21,294 nt of DNA from Larix sibirica. Taxonomy: Eukaryota > Streptophyta > Pinopsida > Pinales > Pinaceae. The DNA is taken from the NCBI GenBank assembly GCA_004151065.3, contig NWUY0300038459.1, forward strand, positions 14,871 to 36,164, read 5' to 3'. A program made the position numbers and the translations under genes. A model generated the notes under the pieces. The model was not told the DNA's origin. It ran no database searches and saw only the letters and a program-made list of their open reading frames with translations. Positions 3,025-20,238 of the stretch are shown in pieces. Position 1 is the first letter of the stretch. Every line of letters starts with the position of its first letter.

Positions 3025-6015
3025 TTGATTGCTGTCTATACCCAAAGCTGCAAATAGGCCAAGTGGCAATGTCGGGGACATTGCCACCTCGTGGCTCTTG
3101 TTTTAAATTATGATATAGAAATTTAATTAAACAAATATAAACAACGAGTATCAAAATATATTCCAATTCAACAGCTCAAACAAGATAAGATGCAAGAATC
3201 TCATTTGAGAGAGATTTCTTGGCACCTAAAGAACCTAGAAACCTCAATAACGCTGAACTCTAGAAATTTCTTACAATTGTCCATCGGAATGGTGAAACTC
3301 TCACTTGGCTTGTGAAACATTCACATTAATTTCCAAGTATGTCAAAGCTAAGCAGTAAATATATTTTACTTGTAAAGTATACCATGTCTAATTCCAAAAG
3401 ACTGATGGAGAGGTCCTTTATTACACAATACTACAAAAACAACACCCGGTAGTTATGGAAAGGTTAGATGATATACCCTAGGACCTTAGATTTAAATACC
3501 TCATGAGGTCTATCATGAAAGCTTTAAACATGTAAGTTATACATGGATCATTCCACATCTATTAAGTGCCTTCCCAAATTCGAAACTAAAACATATACCT
3601 AAGCACATATAAATCAATTCGAATTCGAAGGTGACTTGTGAGAAGGATTTTAACTCATTCCATTGTTTAACAAGGGGACCATCGTAGCAGCAAGTCCCTA
3701 CTTTTAGTGTTTGTTTTCTAATGACAAGAAAAACAAGTATTTAATAAATTAATTATGGTGCTCTTATTGCTTAAATGTTCTACGAAGTTGGTTATCGAAG
3801 AATTGACAATATTTAGCTAATAAAAACAATGTCAAACCATATTTTGATAGTTCTTTACAAAAATTATTATTTAGTTGTGGAAGAGACTTAGTATTTTATA
3901 TTAAAAAAATTATTAGTGTTTACACATAGAGGTAGGTCTTCTTAATTTAGAAGTAGAAATTTAGTATTTTATATTAAAAAAATTTATTAATGTTACACAT
4001 AGAGGTAGGCCTTCTAAATTTAGAAGTAGCTTTCAAAATATAAGTATAGCTTGATGCGTTTAAGTATGTTTTCTATATTTGATTGTAGTGTTTATTTTAT
4101 CATATATTATGTAGTTTTATTCATGTGGTTTTAAAATACTTTCACCGGATACTCATTCATTAGACATTGAATATTTTGAAATATGTTATATTTATGTTGT
4201 AGAGTTTATTTTATCTTATATTGTGTAGTTTTATTCATGTGATATTAAAATACTTCCATCAAATACTCGTCCATTAGACGTTGAATATTTTGAAATATGT
4301 TGTATTTAAGGTGTAATGTGCAAGCAACGACTAACTTGTAAGTTCATTAGACGTTGAATATTTTGAAATATGTTGTATTTACAGTGTAATGTGCACGCAA
4401 CGACTAACTTGTAATTTGCAGTCTCTTGATTATCGTTTTTGGAACTGGCCAAAAATTTTCTTGCAACGATTTCTTCTATGAGTGGCTATGGTAGCAATAT
4501 TATGAAGCGACCACGTCCAAACCTTGTCCAATGTCCGGGTTGGAGTGACGTTCTTTGTTTAGCAGCACCACGTGGATTGCAATCACAGCCTCAGTGGACC
4601 ACAATGACATACAATGCAAAGTGCATTGACTACAGTGCAATGACCGCGACCTACATTGGGCAAGTTCACTTTTGCAATCAAGGATTCTTATTGGATGGAA
4701 TTATTGAATGGATAGATAGTCACATTGGATGATCATTCATCGCTATACGACTTTCATGGGAAAATCCCCATATTTCCCCCATGATAGAACCATTCATCCA
4801 GTTATATAGATATATAATTGGATAAGATAGATATAATATTGTCTTAGAGATATATATACTTTGTAAGCTTTATAGATACTTCCTCTAAGTCGAGAAAAAG
4901 GAAGCAGAACATTCAGGTTAGATTTAAGATGGGAGATGCTTTTCTGGGAGAAAAGGTGCTATCATCGGGAGATGGTCAATGTTGTTCCTGAAGCCAGATT
5001 TGTTCAAGTTGTGTTGGTATGTGCAAGGGCATGTTATAAAAAAAAAAAATTACATTTCCAAACAATCATGTGACTTGACAAAAGCGTATCTTGGTTGGAA
5101 TACTCATTGAAACCATACACCTCTCAAGACATGCAAAGAGTCCATGCTCTAAGTAGTCCACATTTGGAGTTAGTGCATGGAGATAGGCACACAAACTAGA
5201 TAAATGCCATAATGACAGGTGACCTAGCCACAGGTAGAAACACCAGAGTATGTGTTTCCAAATATAGGAAATGTCACTGCGAAGTAATTGTCTCATCATT
5301 CAAAATAGAGTTGGTGGATACAAAAGATGCGAGACAACCACATTTAAGCCATGAAAGGTTAGCGAGCACATGTTCAAGGAATCCATGGAGTCCATTGCTC
5401 CATACGTGGATAATGGTCATGTATTCTATTTGTTTTACAGAGAAAAGTAGTTCCATAGGATTTCTTCGGATGCATGATATGACGGTAGATTGGGCATTTC
5501 ACCAGGAATTCAGTTTAAAAGATCACCACAAAGAGGTTTGAAAGATTTTTCCAAAAATACTTGTCGATAGCAAAGCATTCACAAACAAGCTTTAAGATTA
5601 GTTTTTAAGAAATCTAGACACATTTGGGGTCAATCCTGATCAATGATATTCATCCAAGAATGACAATTTAAAACACTTGAATGATGAAGGAGCAGTGCAT
5701 TCACATATCTTATCAACAGAGAAGACAAGATGCAATGACGAGGAATCATGGAATATCACCACTCCTATAGCCTCCATAAATGATGTGGTAGTTTTCAATA
5801 TTAATCCCAAGGTGCTGGATTCATCCTTTTTAAGTTGTTTTAAGGGAGGTGGAAGGGAGGTGGTTAGAGTGAGGACCATGCACCATGATTTGAATCTTAG
5901 GGGGGCATATAGTCTAAGTTCAGATGTAAAAGCAATAAAGCCATATTTTGTTGTGTAAAAGGGAACATGATGGACATCTAATTAATGGAGTTAGTTATTC
6001 AAAGTTGACATTGTC
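3025..6015. repeat. Right copy of the 3-kb direct duplication
   Basis: This is the second copy of 1-2991. Unlike the left copy it runs on without interruption into the rest of the LTR and the LTR element at 5886-7748, so it looks like the native arrangement. The bases just left of it (2993-3024) may belong to the duplicated unit beyond the window's left edge; that cannot be decided here. Confidence 0.95.
4418..5885. other. Stretch without a recognisable gene (right copy)
   Basis: This is the duplicate of 1394-2861. The three open frames recur at 4439-4732, 5212-5541 and 5677-5958. In the first, the substitution at 4456 changes a Lys codon to Asn. Conservation of these frames between copies only reflects how recent the duplication is and is not evidence of selection. 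Confidence 0.4.
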
Positions 6016-6276
6016 AAAAAGACACCTTATAAAAAGGTAGTAGGGAGAGAGTTAGAATCAAGAAGAAGAGGTCCCAAAATTGGCCTCATTGCATGTAATG
6101 GTTCATCTTAATGGAATCTTTCTTCTCCAACTCTCTCTTGTATTTTCATGGTGTATTTCATTTATTTGTTTCTTGTTTATGTTCATTAAATGATTTTCAT
6201 AGTAGATATATATGTTTTCTCTCCTCCTCTCTCGACATTCAAGCTTTTTGGATCTCATCCCTTAAGATATGGATCA
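5886..6276 (+). repeat. 5' LTR (391 bp)
   Basis: The LTR opens TGATTTGAATC and closes with GGATCA one base before the primer site, giving TG...CA ends. A TATAAAAA box lies at 6028-6035 inside a short inverted repeat (ACCTT-ATAAA-AAGGT). Its first 130 bp lie inside the 3-kb duplication and the rest does not. Confidence 0.8.
6028..6035 (+). promoter_or_regulatory. LTR TATA box
   Basis: The sequence TATAAAAA sits 142 bp into the LTR and is matched at the same place in the 3' LTR at 7606-7613. Retrotransposon transcription normally starts about 30 bp downstream of such a box. Confidence 0.5.
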
Positions 6277-6277
6277 T

Positions 6278-6288
6278 TGGTATTAGAG
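6278..6288 (+). promoter_or_regulatory. tRNA-iMet-type primer binding site
   Basis: TGGTATTAGAG starts one base after the LTR end. It differs by one C-to-T change from TGGTATCAGAG, the usual plant retrotransposon site complementary to the 3' end of initiator tRNA-Met. Confidence 0.75.
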
Positions 6289-7460: not shown

Positions 7461-7461
7461 A

Positions 7462-7748
7462 TGATTTGAATCTTAGGGGAGCATATAGTCTCAGTTCGGA
7501 TATAAAAGTCATAAAGCCATATTTTGTTAAGTGTAAAAGGGAACATGATGGACATCTAATTAATGGAGTTAGTTATTCAAAGTTGACATTGTCAACAAAA
7601 CACCTTATAAAAAGGTAGTAGGGAGAGAGTTAGAATAAAAAAGGAGAGGTCCCAAAATTGGTCTCATTGCATGTAATGGTTCATCTTAATGGAATCCTTC
7701 TTCTCTTACTCTCTCTTGTATTTTCATGGTGCATTTCATTGTATTTCA
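7462..7748 (+). repeat. 3' LTR, truncated
   Basis: This aligns with 5886 to about 6165, TATA box included (7606-7613), with scattered substitutions and small indels (for example an inserted aa after the ttttgtt block). Homology fades near 7740-7748 at a ttcata motif that also occurs further into the 5' LTR. The last roughly 100 bp are missing, and Penelope-like coding sequence begins at once. Confidence 0.8.
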
Positions 7749-7751
7749 TAG

Positions 7752-8093
7752 GAGCATAGTGCAGACTTAATACATAATTGTCATAAGAAGTCTACACTAG
7801 TTGACCACACCCACATATCAAACCACCACATTTGTATTGGCGATTCCAAGTTGGTCATGAGAGAAGATCACTACAGCAGGAGGAAGATCCATGAGGCTAT
7901 TGAGTTTGAGAAGTTCCCAATAAATATAAATAGGGATGACAGCTTAAAGATTGGTGAATGTTGGCAATCTATCATTCATCTCCTTAGAAATAAAAAGAGT
8001 ATTATGAAAAAAAATAACAATAATAGCATAGGCACTTCTAATAGTACTAATTCTAACAACATAAATACTAATGTTACTGCTAATAATTTGTAA
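7752..8093 (+). pseudogene. Penelope-like element: C-terminal part of the GIY-YIG endonuclease domain
   Basis: The open frame from 7752 (after an in-frame TAG at 7749) to the TAA at 8091-8093 encodes 113 residues. In order it shows EHSADL, then KKSTLVDHTH, then MREDHYSRRKIHEAIEFEKF, then NINRDD and a Trp (GECW). This is the layout of the second half of the Penelope-like GIY-YIG (URI) endonuclease: an EH after the lost YIG block, K-S-x-L-x-x-H, R-x-I-x-E-A-I-E with the presumed metal-binding Glu, N-x-N-R-D, and W. The RT domain and the GIY and YIG motifs are absent, so the copy is 5'-truncated. The last about 32 residues are Asn, Ser and Thr rich and look like read-through into simple sequence. 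Endonuclease-bearing Penelope elements in plants are known from conifers (Dryad). The family call is by eye. Confidence 0.75.
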
Positions 8094-8480
8094 TATGATC
8101 GCTAAGTATTAATGAGTATTAGAACAAACTTAATAATAATAATTATAACTTATAAATAACCTATTCTTAGTATATAATCCTAGCTTAGTTCTTCTCCTAA
8201 TGTATACCCTAGGTATTAATAATAAGAATTTGATCTTAACTTTAATCATAAGATCATATAAAATTTCATATATATTCCTAATTTAGTTTTAGTTCTAGTA
8301 AGCCTAATTGTTAGCTTTAGTTCTAATTTCCCTAGTCCTAGTATTAGATCTAGTATTTTTTTTAGTTTTGATTATAATTATAATATAGTCCTAGTAATAT
8401 TAATAGCGTTTTAATTTTAGCATGAATAATAATATTAAATGAGCACTTTAACATTGTCAAGACTAATAATAATAGGATAT
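7980..8480. repeat. AT-rich simple sequence downstream of the Penelope fragment
   Basis: The stretch is dominated by scrambled aat, aac, act and tta triplets and by repeated ctagt and cctag motifs (for example around 8290-8400). No coding similarity is seen beyond 8093. It is probably the 3' end of the Penelope copy or a microsatellite expanded from it. Confidence 0.6.
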
Positions 8481-9679
8481 TATTGACTCTATTAGAACAC
8501 TCATAAAAAAACAAGATCACTTAGAGTACAAATAATAACTTAAAAATTAAAGTTCAAAATCAATAAAATAAAGGATCAAACCCTAGTCTAAGGTTGTCAT
8601 GTAGGTAAACTGGCGATAACAAAACACATTTGTGGATTGCTATTATCTTACCATATTCTTGAAACACTTCTTATCTTGATGATGAACCTGACTTAGAGGC
8701 CCAAAAAATTAATACTAAACACTTGTCAACGCAATTATCCTCCATTTTTATGAAGATTTATCTATGTATGATCAATGAACAACATTTCCAGCATTCCATG
8801 CCATCCATTTTTCAAGAAAAGGAATAGTATCAACCAATCCTTTCGAATGTAGTATTTAAAAAAATTGCCACCTTCTTAAGAAGAACTCTAAACCAATTTG
8901 AAACTGACTTCTTCCTTAAATACATTGCTTGAAAAATCTCCTCCACAATCCTTTACCCTTTAAACCCTTCCATAAGCTTTTCATCGCTAAGGCCTTGCCA
9001 AATAAGAAAATGTTTTTATGCCCCATCCACCTTTTTTTTGGCAAAGCAATTTTATCTCATTTGACAAGATGAATACCTTCTTTACTTTTTTTTCCTGTCC
9101 ACAAGAAACTAAACATTTTTTGTCTGATCTTATTCAAGATGTACATTGGAATTTTTTCTAAAGATATTTAATATATAGGAATATTTTCCAAAACTAATTT
9201 TACAAGTATTAGTCTACCTCGAAGGGATAGTCATCTGTAGCACCAGTTTTCAATCCTCTTTTCAACTTTATTTAAAAGCCAAATCCAATCCTTCTTCAAA
9301 TAACATTTAGTTTAAAGAAAGTATCCAATATATTTAAATCTAGAATCTATAGGTTCCATTTTGAAGGGGAACACATCCTTAATCTCCTGCAACACCTCTT
9401 CATCAATCACATTAAATAAGAAGTTGTACTTTTGACAGCTAATCTCCATTCCAGATGCCTAAAAAAATGCCTTAATTAAATCCTAATAAGCTCTTCATTC
9501 CTCAATAGAGCCATTTCCAAAGAGAAGAACATCATCAACAAACAATAAATTAAATGAGTGATGAAATGCATTGAAATTATTTTGACTCATGTTAATATGC
9601 CTTCTTTTCTTGCTTTATAAGTTTGCTTAAACCTTCTATTACGAGCAAGAAAGCAAAGATGACAAATGACAACCTTGTT

Positions 9680-10006
9680 TCAATCCTTATAACTCTTGAA
9701 AAACTTTGTAGGAGTTCCATTGATTAGTAAACCAAAGTTGGAAGAAGTTACACACACCATAATCCAATTTATAACTTCCATATTTAGGCCAATGTGGTGA
9801 AGGATTAACCTCATAAAAGTCCAATTGACGTTGTCATAAGCTTTGACAAGATCCATTTTCAAAATAAGAGCCTTCAACCTCTTGACTTTGATCAAATGTA
9901 AGATTTCACGGGCCACACCCACCGCATCCAAAATTTGTCTATTGGATAAAAAACCAAATTGTTCTTTATAAATAGCTCTATCCAAATATGGTCTTATTAT
10001 ATTCAC
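9680..10006 (-). pseudogene. LINE reverse transcriptase core, longest open piece
   Basis: This is a 108-residue open frame in the LINE. It holds EQFGFLSNRQ near residue 16, the motif-A block KMDLVKAYDNVNW near residues 50-62, and FGLLINGTPTKFF near residues 90-102. The downstream glycine-rich motif (G-x-x-Q-G) follows after a frame change as GLKQGCHLS, and the FVDD box is at 9542-9531. The Asp residues of motifs A and C are still encoded, but they are separated by stops and frame changes. Confidence 0.85.
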
Positions 10007-10674
10007 AATTACTTTTGAAATTAATTTGTAGACCAGGTTACATAGGGAAATGGGACAAAAGTCACCGAAATATTTAGGCTGGGAGGATTTATGAATAAAT
10101 GCAATGAAGACAGAATTAAGTGCCCCTGAAATAGTTCCATTGGTCCTTGACCCTTATACCACATTTACTAAGTCATTCCCAACAATGTCAAAAAACTGAA
10201 CTTTGAAGAAAAAACTCTACAATCCACCCATCAAGGCCTAGGATTTTGGATTTGGCATAGAGCTTTAAAATATTTTCAATTTCCTTGAAAGTGAGATGAG
10301 CACTTAAATATGGAGCTTCGCTTCTTCATGAGATAACAAAGAAGGATAACATTTTAGTACTTCCATTTGAGAACCTAGGAAGTTTATGTCAAACTCCTTA
10401 AAAAGAGTCTCAAAATGACCAACAACAACTACCTCCAAATATTTTTGAGAATAAATCCTTTCTCCATTCTATCCCTTTAATTCCCAAATAGAATTCATGA
10501 TTATTCTTTGATTAGCAAACCTGTGAAAAAATTTAGTATTGTTGTCTCCCTTTGCCAACCAAAAAGCACGACTTTTGAGTCGCCAAGACTCCTCTTCCAA
10601 CTTCAAAATTCTTACTTTCTTAGCTTCTAGAGAACCTAACACATCTATATCCAAAGCATAAAATACCCCAAAAG

Positions 10675-10697
10675 TATATATATATATATATATATAT
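10675..10697. repeat. (TA)n microsatellite
   Basis: About 11.5 uninterrupted TA dinucleotides lie within the LINE between the endonuclease end and the linker. The expansion interrupts the coding frame. Confidence 0.95.
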
Positions 10698-11184
10698 GAA
10701 TTTCCTCCTCAATATTTATAAGTTCAGCTTTCAAATCAAACTTCTTTTGTTTCTCCTATTGAATAACCTCGCTCTTCAAATCCTTTAACTTAAAAGCCAT
10801 TTGTTGCATAGTTGAACCAACCACCTCATGAGACGAAAATATACATTTATTTTGAACTAAAGTGGAAAAGTATTCTTCGAATACCCACCCATGGTTAAAC
10901 TTGAAAGGAAACTTAGCATTGTCAGAGTCTGCTTCGAATTGGAATGCAATAGGTAAGTGATCATAAAGATTAATATTCATAGACCATGGCCTATACCTCT
11001 CCAAAGTACTAGCTAAATATTTAGAGAATAAAAACTTGTCCAACCTTTTGGACACACCAACTTGACCCAGATGACCATTCCTCTAGGAAGGGGCCATTTT
11101 GAAAGGAAGAACATCAATTAGTTTCGTCATAAGGAAAAAATGTTTGAAGTAATCAACCAGAGGATTAAGTCTAGAATTTTTTGT

Positions 11185-12326
11185 TGGACTTATGGATATA
11201 CTGAGAGGGGGGGGGGTGAATCAATATAAGCTACTTTTTCTTATTTTTACCATTCATAAATCATTCATTTACTTTGAAATAGTAGATACACATAAAATAA
11301 AATCATAGTACACATAATTTAATGGGGAAACCCTTTTGGGAGAAAACCACAAAAAACTTATCTTTATAAATTTAGGTAGGCACTAACTTACTGTTACAAG
11401 AATTGTAGGCACCAACCCAATGGAGACACCAATGCACTCAAATGAGAACCAACTCAAAAATATGTAAGAACTAATCTACTAGAGAAACCAATCTCCTCAA
11501 CTGAGCACCAACTCAGTAATATGTAGGCACCGACCTACTAGAGGCAACAATCTCCTACTGTTTCTATTGTCATTGCTACTAGTGATTCTTCTTCTTTTGT
11601 TTGTACATACTCCCATGTTTTGAATTTATGCCAATATGCACTCTTCCAATAACAAAACCTCTTTCTACAAATGCACCATAATTTGCTTCAAAATTTTCCT
11701 TTGATCTGCACCATAATTAGCCCTAATTATGTCATATGATCACCTTCAAGTCACCTCCAAAATCTGGCATAATCACCTTCTATCTTAGCCTCATCTAAAG
11801 GAGAAAACAGAAGAAAAAATCCCTTCCTCTTCACAAGGTGCACCTTCTCTTCCTTAGATAACCTTAGAAACCCTAAGAAAAACCTTCACGAGTATATCAT
11901 CAAGAATATCTTCAAAACCCAGAAGCATCTTCAAAACCATCTTCAAATCCTAGAAGACCTTCCTCTTCCACAAGTGCACACCTTTTTCAGAGCTCCATGA
12001 GTGGATGAATTAAATGAACAAATGAGGTATGACTCCTTATATTTATACTCTTTTTATATCACTTTTTGGGATAACACAATATTGTTCAATATATTGGCAG
12101 GGCCAATCACCTAAAATTTTGGTTGGGTTGACTTTACAAATCTTTTCATATCTCCTCATTCCCATGGAGTTATAGCGAGTTCCATATACCGCTAGAAAGG
12201 TATCGGAATAATATTTCCAACCATGTAACATATACACCCATTTGATCTAGGTATGTAGAGTAAAAATGCATTCAAAGATAGGGTAACCAAAGTGGCATAA
12301 AACATCCAAAAACAATATTTCCAACA
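11185..12326 (-). repeat. Copia 3' LTR (left-hand copy)
   Basis: On the plus strand it runs from TGGACTTATGG to a CCAACA end, so on the element's strand it opens TGTTGG and closes CCA. The match to 14427-15542 includes the 59-bp hairpin repeat, a cttcaaa-rich block (about 11890-11965) and the block ggttgggttgactttacaaa. A TATA-like stretch on the minus strand lies at about 12038-12058. Its left edge abuts the LINE. Confidence 0.85.
11376..11575. repeat. 59-bp tandem repeat of shared-loop hairpins (left LTR)
   Basis: Units start with gtagg at 11405, 11464 and 11523 (period 59), preceded by a partial unit at 11376. Each unit contains three short inverted repeats around the same hexamer, CACCAA or a close variant: GTAGG/CCTAC, GAGA/TCTC and CTGAG/CTCAG. 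The clearest cases here are ACTGAG-CACCAA-CTCAGT (about 11498-11515) and GTAGG-CACCGA-CCTAC (11523-11538). Other stems in this LTR carry mismatches. Confidence 0.85.
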
Positions 12327-12327
12327 A

Positions 12328-12337
12328 TCTCCATCTT
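12328..12337 (-). promoter_or_regulatory. Copia polypurine tract
   Basis: On the minus strand AAGATGGAGA lies immediately before TTGTTGG, matching the common plant Copia arrangement of a purine run next to the 3' LTR. The same motif stands outside the other LTR at 15553-15544. Confidence 0.6.
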
Positions 12338-12515
12338 GCAATATTTATATTGGACATGTATAGTCTCCCCTTTCCTTTGACATGAATGAAAACAATATTT
12401 ACAACAATACCCTCATTTTTCATTGATGGCAACCTTTATATAATTCTAGAATAAACCTATAGATACCCCCTTTGTCTACAACTCCTATTTTGCCTACAAT
12501 TCTCCCCCTTTGTCA

Positions 12516-12930
12516 TCAATGAAAAAGGGATTCTCCCCCTAATCTTGTGCTTTTCTTCAATATTTTTTCTTCAATGAGTATGTATACATTGATTGAGGTT
12601 CTATTTTCATATGCCACTAATATTCTTGATCCCACTTTCCTTATTCCACACCCTTTAGAATCAGATGTGAGGTTATAACCTTGATCACACATTTGGATAA
12701 CACTTGGAATATTTTTCGTTATCCCTTCAACATACAAGACATTTGGTGTTTTAGTTCCTTTACCAAGACTAACAATACGTTTTCCAACTATCTTTTCATA
12801 ATCATTATCTCCAAAAGTAATATTGACTCCTTGTTTCTTCCTTAAGGTGAGAAACTTTGTCTCATCTCATGTCGTGTGTCTTTAACATCCACTTTTAATA
12901 TGCCATTGGTTCCATTTATCTTGAGAATAG
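12516..12930 (-). pseudogene. Copia aspartic protease and post-protease remnant
   Basis: On the minus strand HIKSGC, a stop, RHTT, a second stop and DETKF (about 12905-12855) align with the usual VDSGCSxHMTG protease signature. The catalytic Asp is replaced by Lys. FGDNDYEKIVGKR, NVLYVEGI and SVIQMCDQGYNLT follow, then RKVGSR; this is the region between protease and integrase of Copia polyproteins. It ends with GGESLFH near 12520 and no integrase follows. Together with the gag piece this is the whole coding content of the element. Two stops and the lost Asp make it non-functional. Confidence 0.8.
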
Positions 12931-13109
12931 AGTACAAATCCACATTATTCATTCTTATATTCTTTTCTGCAGCTTGTATCTTCTAGATCTTCTTGGTTTT
13001 TCTTTTCTTTCCAAACCTTTGAGTATTCTTCTTTATGTTTGGCAATGACATCTTCTTCCATGTTTTGCTTAGGAGAACCTGCTATGTTGCTTCTACAGTA
13101 ACGTGCTAT

Positions 13110-14359
13110 GTGCCCATATTTATTGTATTTATAGAATTTAACATCAAGTAGGGGAGAAAATGAATTGTAACTTCTATCGCAAACCCATAAGAACTACAAT
13201 TTATATTTCTCACACAATCATCCTTTCAAGTCTAATAAGGATCCCTATTTTTGCTTCTCACATTATAACTTCTTTCACATGCTCTACAATCTATTGCTTT
13301 ATGACCAAAATTATTGAAAGAGAAACAATATCCAAAGAAGACATTTTTGGGACCTCGGTGTGAAATATATTCTTGGTGGAAATTCTCTTCTAAACTCATC
13401 AATTTTCTAAATTCTATGTTGCTTTCATTGTTGATGGAGCCTTTGAGAAAATTGACATTGTTTTGGGGATTTTCTTCATCTTCCTTGCTTGCATCTTCGT
13501 CATGGATATTCTAAATCTCATCATAGCCAAGACCTATCTTGATGAGTGGTGACCTTTGGCAACTGAGGATCTCATTCAAAATTTCAATGCTCTTCAAACT
13601 TCTTTGTAATTGTGCATTTGACTTTTCTTGAGACAACTTCATATTCTATATTCTCATAGATTTCTTTCTTTTCCTTGAGTTGACCCATCATTACCTATTC
13701 TATCCTTGTTTCCTCTTCAAGATAAGTATTCAGGTTGATAATTTCCTTCTCTATTTCTCCTTTTATCCCTTTTTTCTCTTCTAGCCGAGTCTTTAGGTTG
13801 ATAATTGTCTTATGTATTTCTCCTTCTATCCTCTTTACCTCTTCTAGCTAAGTCTTCAAGATGATAATTGTCTTCTTTGCTTCATCAAGATCATGATCCT
13901 TCTTTTCATATTTCTACAATTGCTCCTTTTGCTTTATGTTTATCTTCTCAGCTTGTCAATTTCATGTATGGCACTGACAAGTTTTACTTCAAGAAACTAT
14001 TCCACATCAATTTCATCTTCTTCATCTTTATATTTTTCTCTTTCATCAACATTTTTTGTATCCATGGTCATGAAGAGAGGTTCTTCTCTATAAATATCTT
14101 GTAGCTTGTCCCAAATCTCTTTAGCTGATGTACAATTCTTTACCTTGACAATCATAGAATATGGTAGGGCACTCAAAATGGAATCCATTGCTTCTGTATT
14201 GTTTTCACTTGACTTCTTCTTATTTGTATAACATGTTATGAATGAATCCCATATATCAAACCCAAGGGCCATCAAATATATCTTCATTATCATGTTCCAA
14301 AATGCATAGTTTGAACCATCAAATGAAGGAGATATGGAAAGACCTTCCTGATAAACCAT
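13110..14359 (-). pseudogene. Copia gag polyprotein, decayed
   Basis: The open part (14359-13997, 120 residues) begins MVYQEG and contains FDGSNYAFWNMIMKIYLMAL and SAKEIWDKLQ, the standard N-terminal gag signatures of plant Copia elements. After a stop come a coiled-coil region with an in-frame 21-residue repeat (about 13880-13690), then ILSCQRSPLIKIGLGYDE (about 13600-13520), then a zinc knuckle YCFSFNNFGHKAIDC (about 13330-13284) whose second Cys is Phe. Several stops and frame changes separate these parts. Gag packages the element's RNA. The start at 14359 lies 50 bp inside the primer site, which is plausible. Confidence 0.85.
13690..13890 (-). repeat. 63-bp in-frame repeat in gag (21-residue coiled coil)
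   Basis: The plus-strand block ggttgataa recurs at 13733 and 13796 and, as agatgataa, at 13859, a period of 63 bp. In the minus-strand gag frame each unit reads roughly I-I-x-L-K-T-x-L-E-E-x-x-x-I-x-G-E-I. That is three heptads with hydrophobic residues in register, as expected for a coiled coil. Confidence 0.8.
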
Positions 14360-14409
14360 AAGTGCTCAAAATCTTCCTTCTAGTGGTTAGATTGTTTCTA
14401 AAGGAACTT

Positions 14410-14421
14410 GCTCTGATACCA
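14410..14421 (-). promoter_or_regulatory. Copia primer binding site (tRNA-iMet)
   Basis: The minus strand reads TGGTATCAGAGC, the exact common plant retrotransposon primer site. It lies five bases inside the LTR edge at 14427 and fixes the orientation of the element. Confidence 0.95.
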
Positions 14422-14426
14422 ATTCT

Positions 14427-15542
14427 TGGACTTATGGTTATACTAATATGTGGGGGGTTGAATCGATATAAGTTACTTTTTATGATCTTAACCGTTCATC
14501 AATCATTCATTTACTTTGAAACGGTAAATACATATAAACTCAAATCACAATACACATAATTTAACGTGGAAACCCTTTCGGGAGAAAACCATAAAAAGTT
14601 ATCTTTATAAATTCATATAGGCACCAACCTACTGTTACAAAGCTTGTAGGAACCAACCTACTAGAGACACCAATCCCCTCAAATGAGCACCAACTCAACA
14701 ATATGTAAGAACCAAACTACTAGAGACACCAATCTCGTCAACTAAGCACCAACTCAGTAATATGTAGGCACTGACCTACTGGAGACACCAATCCCCTACT
14801 ACTGCTACTGGTGCCGCTGCTTATTTTTCTTGTCCTTCCTTCTATGTTTTGACTCTATGTCAATTTGCACTCTTCCAATAGACAACACCTCTTTCTACAG
14901 ATGCACCATAATTTGCTTCAAAATTTTCCTTTGACATATACCATAATTAGCCCTAATTATGTCATATGATCACCTTCAAGTCAACTCCAAAATTTGGCAT
15001 AATCACCTTCTATCTTAGCCTCATCCAAATAAGAACATGCAAGAAAAAATACCCCCCTCTTCACAAGGTGTGCCTTCTCTTCCTTAGAGAACCTTAGAAA
15101 CCCTAAGAAAAACCTTCAAAAGAATATCTTCAAAACCTAGAAAACATCTTCAAATCCATCTTCAAACCCTAGAAGACCTTCCTCTTCCACAAGTACGCAT
15201 TGTTTTTAGATATCTATGAGTGGATCAATGAATGAAAAAATGAGGGGCGCCTCCTTCTATTTCTACTCTTCTTATATCACTTTTTGGATCGACATAACAT
15301 TGTTCAATATCTTGGCAGGGCCGACCTAAAATTTTGGTTGGGTTGACTTTACAAATCCTTTCATATCTCTTCATTCCTATGGAGTTAGAGAGAGTTCCAT
15401 ATACCATTAGAAAGGTCTCGAAATACAATTTCCAACTATGTAATATATATTCCCATTTGATCTAGGTATATAGAGTAAAAATGCATTGAAATATAACGTA
15501 TCCAAACTAGGCATCAAAAATCCAAAAACAGTATTTCTAACA
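14427..15542 (-). repeat. Copia 5' LTR (right-hand copy)
   Basis: This runs on the plus strand from TGGACTTATGG to CTAACA and is homologous throughout to 11185-12326. On its outer side the homology to the left copy continues about 50-60 bp beyond the expected LTR end, including the purine tract. This is unusual for a 5' LTR. Confidence 0.85.
14615..14810. repeat. 59-bp tandem repeat of shared-loop hairpins (right LTR)
   Basis: Units start at 14646, 14705 and 14764 (period 59). The clearest hairpins are GTAGG-AACCAA-CCTAC (14646-14661), TGAG-CACCAA-CTCA and GTAGG-CACTGA-CCTAC (14764-14779). The hexamer CACCAA or AACCAA is kept in nearly every position even where a stem base has changed. Confidence 0.85.
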
Positions 15543-15860
15543 ATCTCCATCTTGCAATCTTTCTCTTGGACATATGTAGTCTCGTCTTTCCTTGTAGAAT
15601 GAAGTTTGATCTCCATGTATTGTGTATAATATTTTTTTATTGATGATCTCAAGATATCCTCATCCATATGATTTGGAATTGCTTCTATCAATCCAAATGT
15701 AACACTTGTCTTTCAATTTTAATGTCAACTATGAGTTCCCATGGAGATAACTGCATGAAGTTTGCTCTCCATGTTAATTGTGTATAATATATTTTTATTC
15801 ATGATCTCAAGCTTCCCTCATCGATCTGATTTGAAAATGCTTCTAATATAAGCGTCACCT
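15543..15860 (-). mobile_element. Second copy of Copia 3' interior end, with 156-bp repeat
   Basis: Positions 15543 to about 15600 match 12327 to about 12390, including the polypurine tract and the block before it, so this is the 3' interior of another element or of a head-to-tail copy sharing the LTR. Beyond that point the two diverge. A segment starting gaagtttgatctccatg (15601-15694) recurs at 15757-15850 as gaagtttgctctccatg, a period of 156 bp. No pol motif is seen. Confidence 0.6.
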
Positions 15861-16060
15861 GCGACATTGAGGGAAGTCTAAATAGAACACTGGGTTTTCA
15901 ACCTTTTCAAGGTCGCTTAGTTATGGAAAATATGCAACTGCAAAATGTGTTGTTGGATCAAATCCATCAAAAAAATTCATTTTATATTTTCTATTTTGGT
16001 GAATGGTTGGAGATATCACAAAACAAACTTAGGATTTATTTTAATGGATTGAGAATAAGT

Positions 16061-16140
16061 GATATTTTGGTGGAGTGATCTAGGATGCCATATTTAGGCT
16101 TTGGTCCGAAAGGGCATGGGTTCAAATCCCACAGTTGTCA
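16061..16140 (+). pseudogene. tRNA-Leu(UAG) pseudogene or tRNA-derived SINE head
   Basis: The 80-bp stretch has the layout of a nuclear class-II tRNA-Leu. Its anticodon loop is TTTAGGC at 16093-16099 with anticodon TAG. The variable arm is TGGTCCGAAAGGGC-like, an intact B box GGTTCAAATCC lies in the T arm, and the discriminator is A. The acceptor stem pairs 6 of 7 positions including G-T pairs. Against the plant tRNA-Leu(UAG) sequence as I remember it there are about 12 differences, mostly C-to-T or G-to-A, concentrated in the D arm and A box. No CCA is encoded. It is probably inactive, though a functional diverged gene is not excluded. Confidence 0.75.
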
Positions 16141-16212
16141 TCTATCTGTATGTATTTGAGAATTCCGAAACATATTCAAATATAGAAACATTGACTAGTA
16201 GGTGCCACAGTC

Positions 16213-18559: not shown

Positions 18560-18975
18560 TTGTCCAATTACCTCTCTGATTGCATGATAATATGCAAATC
18601 CTTCCTCCATGTGAGTGCAACATCCTTAACCTTTCTCTTATGAGTGTGACCTCCCTAACTGTGATGCTACGCAAAATATTTATCCTTACTACCTCCCTGA
18701 CTGTGTGATACTAGGAAGATCCTTCCTGCTTATGAGTGTGACCTCCCTGACTTTGTTATAGTATGCAGATCCTTCTTCCCTATGAGTATGACCTTCTTGA
18801 CTGTGTGATATTATGCATATCCTTTCTCCTTATGACCTCCCTGACTGTGTGATACTATGCAGAGCCTTCATCCTTATGAGTGTGACCTCTCAATCTATGT
18901 GATATTATGCAGAGCCTTCCTACTTGTGAGTGATAATTCCCTATCCTCTCTCTCTATGAGTGTGATCTCTCTGCC
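18560..18975. repeat. Degenerate minisatellite, about 50-bp unit
   Basis: The unit resembles tgagtgtgacctccctgact followed by gtgtgatactatgcagatcc and ttcctcctta. Its acctcc block occurs at about 18570, 18620, 18649, 18691, 18741, 18791, 18835 and 18885, with more degenerate copies to 18975. Spacing is mostly 50 bp, with shortened units of 29, 42 and 44 bp. It lies in the would-be interior of the short-LTR element. Confidence 0.85.
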
Positions 18976-19068
18976 TTAAGCCTTAGGATCCTATATTCTT
19001 TGCATCGCAAGGTTAGTTTTATCACTTGGGTACTCCATTTAAGGGAATTTCCATAATCATTTCCATAT

Positions 19069-19200
19069 TTTGATGCACCGTGAACTAAATGGATAGTGTT
19101 ATCACTTTGCAGACTATAGCTCTGAAGAGAATTATTATCCTTGAGGATCCGACCCTTGTAAATCAATCGTTGTTGATGTGCAAGTTTTGGTGTAACCTTA
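19069..19200 (-). pseudogene. Ubiquilin (DSK2)-like ubiquitin-like domain fragment
   Basis: The minus strand encodes [20 protein letters not shown] and then [18 protein letters not shown]. This is the C-terminal half of a ubiquitin-like fold in the version found at the N-terminus of plant DSK2/ubiquilin proteins ([19 protein letters not shown]-x-H-x-V), which carry ubiquitinated cargo to the proteasome. The first strands of the domain are not recognisable upstream, and the frame continues for about 38 codons after HGASK without similarity before a stop at 18954. There is no STI1 or UBA region. It is a gene fragment or isolated exon. BAG6-type proteins have a related domain, but the [10 protein letters not shown] and SYSLQ wording favours DSK2. 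Confidence 0.7.
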
Positions 19201-20238
19201 AAAGACCAAGAATATCACATTTTTTAGTCAAGAACAACTTAAAAGCCCCAAAAATCATGCATAGCCATAATTCCTCGTTTCATATCTAGTGTCTATTTAA
19301 TATTGAAACCTAGTATTTGTGAAGGCGTAGCATACTGATTCACTAATTTCATACTCCCTACACTATTACAACACAATTTATACCCACTTCTTTTGAAAGG
19401 AAACCAATAAAGTAACTCAAGCCTTTCAATCGTTCTTGCTTAGCTGATCAAGCTTGTAAGTGGTTCAGTATCAACACACACTATTTCAAAATCTAATGCC
19501 ATCAGAGCGAGCCATACAAACCCATACCGACTCAATGTAGATGCTCTGAAAAAGGGGTGGCAATGACTGGTGTCGACTTAATGGAGATGGGACATGGCGG
19601 TGCCTGTAGGCATAATGATCCTCATAAAATATTAATAAATGTCTCCACACTAAATTTTGATATGTTGGTTCACCAAATGTGAATGACTATAACGACATAA
19701 ACATCTCCTAGAAGCAACATAGACCCTCCAAATCTGGTAGACTGCCCAATTAATCTTTGCACTTTTTAAGTTTCGGACTCCATCGCATTTCTATTACTGT
19801 TGGTGTAGAGAGCGTATTGCAAACAATATCAAATATATTGCAGAGATCATTTGTTGACTAGATTTATTATATTGTAGATATTTATATTAGCACATAGACT
19901 ATATTGTAAAGACCATTAAAGAGATATTATATTTCTCATTTCACAAAGAGTGCACTAGCCTATGGTGCCAAGTTTGAACATTGTATTGCATAGATTGTAA
20001 GAAGAGTGTATCTCAAAGATTACCATTATTGTTATTGTATTGTCACAAACAAGGCTACATCATATTATATTATAATTCACTATAGCATATCTTGCACATT
20101 CACAGAGACTGTGTTGTAAGCTTATTGTATTGCAGTACTTGTTGAAAAAAAGTATATTACAGATTGTAAAGCTTGTCAGCGTGTGTTGTCTAGTTTCCAT
20201 TGTTGGGGTAGTTCTCATTGGAAAGGAAAACATACATA
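19201..20238. other. Probable untranslated leader region ahead of the terminal Copia gag
   Basis: No coding region is seen. TGCCATCAGAGCGAGCC at 19497-19513 resembles the iMet primer site TGGTATCAGAGC with two changes, so an LTR may end just before it, though I cannot delimit one. From about 19800 to 20180 the sequence is a scrambled simple repeat rich in attgtaaag, attgcag and tattgta motifs. Confidence 0.35.

Follow-up and report, generated by a model that had tools for sequence, protein, structure and literature searches.

A 5'-truncated Penelope-like endonuclease fragment beside a broken LTR, very probably the relic of a dead retrotransposon

Analysis of a 21,294-nucleotide stretch of DNA (the window) revealed a partial Penelope-like GIY-YIG endonuclease, its C-terminal portion, on the forward strand at 7752..8003, where phmmer, profile, tblastn and alignment recognised 84 codons corresponding to positions 30-113 of a 118-position profile. 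As judged from this homology, the open reading frame that contains it (7752-8093) carries about 70% of the endonuclease domain of a Penelope-like element (PLE), and it is very probably a remnant of a dead, 5'-truncated copy of an endonuclease-bearing PLE retrotransposon. Penelope-type elements are common in animals, and conifers have been reported to carry them as well. The first-pass annotation had described the frame as the C-terminal half of the endonuclease, which is fair as regards the extent of the domain retained but does not hold for the last 29 codons, which lie outside it.

The frame comprises 113 codons, is preceded by a TAG stop (7749-7751) and is closed by a TAA stop (8091-8093). 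Its length is uninformative, because frames of at least 113 codons from stop to stop occurred on average 1.04 times per window in 100 random windows of the same dinucleotide make-up. A PLE endonuclease profile, built from 94 domains after two of the 96, P0088 and P0097, had been left out as shorter than 70 aa, matched just one of the 368 window frames of at least 30 aa, the frame 7752-8093 (50.8 bits, E 4.3e-15), and matched it again when rebuilt without its closest relative, P0044 (47.8 bits, E 3.7e-14). It is this PLE-type GIY-YIG endonuclease sequence that places the copy among the endonuclease-bearing PLEs. With the HMMER filters on, the same profile reported none of the 68,673 frames from 200 windows randomised as first-order Markov sequences. 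That the resemblance arose by chance in an open frame of low complexity would fit the ordinary length of the frame and its low-complexity tail, but none of the random frames matched the profile and the match covers residues 1-84, not the tail, and this explanation was rejected as vanishingly improbable.

The 96 PLE proteins used for these comparisons were retrieved from a protein database with a PLE endonuclease consensus, which was composed when the frame had already been seen and was used solely to fetch relatives (of 122 candidates, 96 reached E <= 0.001). Many of them also contain a reverse transcriptase domain, and the named hosts among them are leafhopper, bees, ant, cockroach, sea urchins, crinoid, clam, scorpion, tick and coral. 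In the protein search against PLE endonucleases that had been proposed as a check, the frame gave significant phmmer matches to 59 of the 96 at E <= 0.01 and to 57 at E <= 0.001, 37 being unmatched; the top match was P0044 (54.5 bits, E 6.7e-17), followed by P0003 from the leafhopper Macrosteles (E 7.6e-12). When the 96 proteins were searched against the window by tblastn, the frame was matched by 43 of them at E <= 0.001 and by 69 at E <= 10.

Searched with the frame itself, the protein database yielded no relative at E <= 1 (one candidate, or 11 candidates with a padded query). The fragment was unmatched in Pfam at E <= 10, and likewise no endonuclease match was found there for P0044, P0003 and P0017, while the PDB sequence search gave one chance match in each of two runs. 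The AlphaFold2 model of the frame contains four helices but no strand; its mean pLDDT is 70.9, and residues 93-113 are under 50; a fold search of the PDB with this model returned nothing significant (one match at E 5.9), a result that is little informative for a partial domain.

A GIY-YIG endonuclease of bacterial, phage or organellar origin would be another source of such a fragment, the GIY-YIG endonuclease superfamily being, according to passages of one source, common to both (PMC1564403). Against a bacterial, phage or organellar origin stand the matches to PLE proteins, which reach down to E 6.7e-17. Bacterial best matches, which the first-pass annotation had regarded as the finding that would speak against its claim, did not appear: there was no tblastn match at E <= 1 in phages or plasmids and none in PHROGs at E <= 1. 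A search for DNA-level relatives in prokaryote genome contigs with a single 9-residue pattern (35 stretches) gave none that was confirmed, and searches of viral contigs with six patterns (35 stretches) and with one pattern (159 stretches) gave none. On the collections searched, a bacterial or phage origin was rejected, and this reading as a whole is extremely improbable.

Alignment with the relatives places the signature motifs in the order in which the first-pass annotation had listed them. In alignment A1 (11 rows), E1, H2, H19, H25, R44, E48, N60, D62 and W71 are invariant. E1 stays invariant across the 49 rows of alignment A2, where conservation reaches at least 90% in the columns of H2, H19, H25 and E48. 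As in insect PLE proteins that bear the endonuclease (Macrosteles, Periplaneta, bees and ant), the motifs run in order from EH to the C-terminal Trp, but the window copy differs from these proteins in having neither reverse transcriptase nor GIY/YIG part and in having an Asn-rich tail. Identity of the frame with the five insect rows of A1 that carry a name is 28-32%, and it falls to 19% in A2. The best match, P0044, is a PLE fragment of 274 aa from a 1029-bp contig, with 38% identity over 82 columns; it ends a few residues past the last shared helix, close to where homology with the window frame stops, but it retains the GIY/YIG part and a linker ahead of it.

The fragment starts at the EH motif and profile positions 1-29 are absent, with them the GIY/YIG tyrosines and the conserved Arg upstream. 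By comparison with I-TevI, the retained part presumably supplies the Glu that binds the metal and the late Asn, and the two tyrosines and the Arg would belong to the missing part. No other PLE sequence, reverse transcriptase included, was found in the window by tblastn with the 96 PLE proteins; the 218 pieces that fell elsewhere at E <= 10 (217 with slightly wider bounds), the best of them at E 0.054, were taken as noise. Absence of the reverse transcriptase is expected for a 5'-truncated copy, and the earlier description of the fragment as a 5'-truncated one is supported. Domestication, in which the frame would be a host gene or exon derived from a PLE endonuclease and not a dead copy, would agree with the 84 homologous codons having remained open, but the frame opens directly after a stop next to the broken LTR, the first Met comes at residue 36, the GIY/YIG part is absent and no further PLE coding piece lies near; it was rejected as very unlikely. 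With profile positions 1-29 absent, the fragment is to be regarded as a relic of an endonuclease-bearing PLE and not as a working member.

Regarding the 3' side, homology stops near residue 84 (about position 8003), beyond which the last 29 codons form an Asn-rich tail (12 of 29 residues are Asn), which has no clear equivalent in the aligned relatives and runs with the TAA stop to 8093 (8004..8093, forward strand; delimited by composition and model). The AT content of this tail (0.778) is close to that of the 467 bases downstream of the stop (0.782), compared with 0.627 in the 252 homologous bases. These 467 bases (8094..8560, recognised by composition, the right edge being approximate and set by eye) are rich in TAA and AAT and may be either 3' untranslated DNA of the PLE or an AT-rich flank. 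The Asn-rich tail of the frame is supplied by TAA/AAT-rich DNA that extends over 8004-8560. Asn-rich stretches coded by AAT and AAC and in frame with the PLE are also described, in the portion of the source available, for Penelope ORFs of the rotifer Adineta vaga, where they are long inserts of several hundred residues within the ORF, in contrast to the 29-codon tail of the window copy with the AT content of the DNA that follows (PMC3846280). No hammerhead ribozyme was matched at E <= 1, no tandem repeats were found in 7700-9000, and neither target-site duplication nor pseudo-LTRs were identified in this one truncated copy, in which such features are not resolvable.

On the left, the frame abuts a broken LTR. 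Self-comparison revealed two forward-strand segments, 5885-6167 and 7461-7746 (93.4% identity), that resemble the LTR pair of a small element. The first copy is taken to extend over 5885..6277, its end being placed by the primer-binding-site-like sequence TGGTATTAGAG that follows it (6278..6288, forward strand, recognised as a motif), which we take to be of the tRNA-Met type. The element also shows a TATAAAAAGG box and a G-rich run ahead of the second copy (7461..7746), which ends just before the endonuclease frame: LTR homology stops at 7746 and the PLE frame starts at 7752, 6 bases on. If the first copy ends at 6277, the second is 110 bases shorter, and the missing 110-base end was not found downstream of 7746 on either strand (scores of 27 and 26, compared with shuffled means of 26.5 and 25.9).

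In an intact element, the reverse transcriptase would be followed by the C-terminal endonuclease; the endonuclease would cleave AT-rich DNA and the telomerase-like reverse transcriptase would copy the element RNA at the break. Both 5' truncation and AT-rich targets have been described for PLEs in passages of several papers (PMC9033089; PMC3846280; PMC11167929), and the present copy would be one of the frequent 5'-shortened ones, retaining the endonuclease from the EH motif onward. Because it retains nothing else of the element, it should have lost the capacity for both DNA cleavage and transposition. The junction with the LTR could have arisen by insertion of the 5'-truncated PLE into the LTR, with the distal LTR piece lost afterwards, or by a deletion that fused the broken LTR to the PLE fragment; insertion into the LTR is unproven because the missing LTR piece was not found.

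Regarding the relationships of the fragment, the first-pass annotation had proposed a tree with arthropod elements, and such trees do give arthropod neighbours, but the placement is unstable between trees. The frame groups in the 95-row tree first with P0044 (support 96/67), then P0017 (92/84) and then Macrosteles (86/58) in an insect-rich part, on a long branch of 1.97 changes per column. In the 79-row tree, which is based on shared columns and drops 16 of the 95 rows (12 picked out individually because of long branches or gaps, four as too short, with P0017 and the window row retained despite their long branches), three Centruroides rows adjoin the frame (SH-aLRT 46). The tree without P0044 has Centruroides (23) as neighbour, followed by P0084, P0082 and Macrosteles (84). 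Judged on the rows with a named host, these positions suggest an arthropod kinship of the frame.

The annotation had gone further and assigned the relic to the Dryads, which would make the window conifer DNA. Dryads are conifer elements ascribed to a transfer from arthropods approximately 340 million years ago (PMC9370799; PMC9033089; PMC10473749). We consider the assignment to Dryad and conifer somewhat favoured. The available excerpts of three papers assign to conifers those PLEs of land plants that bear an endonuclease (PMC9033089; PMC9370799; PMC10473749), and the Dryads (Lin, Faridi and Casola, 2016), as portrayed in parts of papers citing them, resemble the window copy in being endonuclease-bearing and 5'-truncated and in residing, as this copy probably does, in plant DNA. 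The position of the frame with P0044, P0017 and Macrosteles in the insect-rich region of the 95-row tree is in line with a Dryad, and the neighbouring copia-type gag, LINE reverse transcriptase and ubiquitin-like fragment are compatible with a plant. However, this neighbourhood is not specific to conifers, nor strictly to plants; no conifer-labelled protein is found among the 96 PLE proteins, the closest relative sits on a short contig, and the shift towards Centruroides in the two other trees also counts against the assignment.

Penelope is said, in the part of a preprint available, to be absent from other gymnosperms and from angiosperms (PMC10473749). The exclusive link between conifers and Penelope is weakened because the automated annotation of an angiosperm, Barthea barthei, lists 278 Penelope copies, according to an excerpt of the genome's description (PMC11939994). 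If the DNA is that of a plant, a conifer is nevertheless the best guess for its source, as far as the available passages go (PMC10473749; PMC9033089). A separate animal-to-plant transfer, recorded by a plant PLE lineage other than Dryad or by a host that is not a conifer, is an unlikely alternative to a Dryad origin; room for it is left by the long branch (1.97) and by the 38% identity to the closest relative. The portion of the SPTEdb paper available mentions PLEs in general terms only (PMC5846285).

If the relic is a Dryad, it would add a further decayed copy to those left by a proposed transfer of a retroelement from animals to plants, and the nesting order among the neighbouring repeats could help to date it. 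Alone it changes nothing, since PLE DNA is already annotated in conifer genomes; for Japanese cedar, the part of the source available has a Penelope entry of 2,966,778, apparently bases (PMC11539532). The fragment is a real but ordinary genomic fossil of a known kind, in repeat-rich DNA.

To the right of the PLE frame, the AT-rich stretch is followed by a LINE relic on the reverse strand, with a copia-type element beyond. The decayed LINE extends, by eye, over about 8600-11180 and includes a reverse transcriptase identified with Pfam at 9680-10153 (RVT_1, E 1.9e-15). The copia-type LTR element (11181-15593, reverse strand) was delimited by self-comparison, with LTRs at 11181-12377 and 14423-15593 (84% identity), and has a primer-binding-site-like motif at 14411-14421 and a gag at 13997-14365 (Pfam PF14223, E 2.1e-08). 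Farther on lie a tRNA-Leu-like sequence at 16060-16142, below the Rfam cut-off (25.4 bits compared with 29), a degenerate repeat array at 18569-18977 with copies spaced about 50 and 94 bases apart, and, on the reverse strand at 18954-19214, a ubiquitin-like fragment that spans roughly half of the domain (Pfam E 2e-11) and matches PDB chains of ubiquitin and DSK2. At the left end of the window, tandem copies at 1-2991 and 3025-6015 are 99.87% identical, with a single N at 2992 directly after the first copy, and represent either a duplication of very recent date or an artefact of the assembly.
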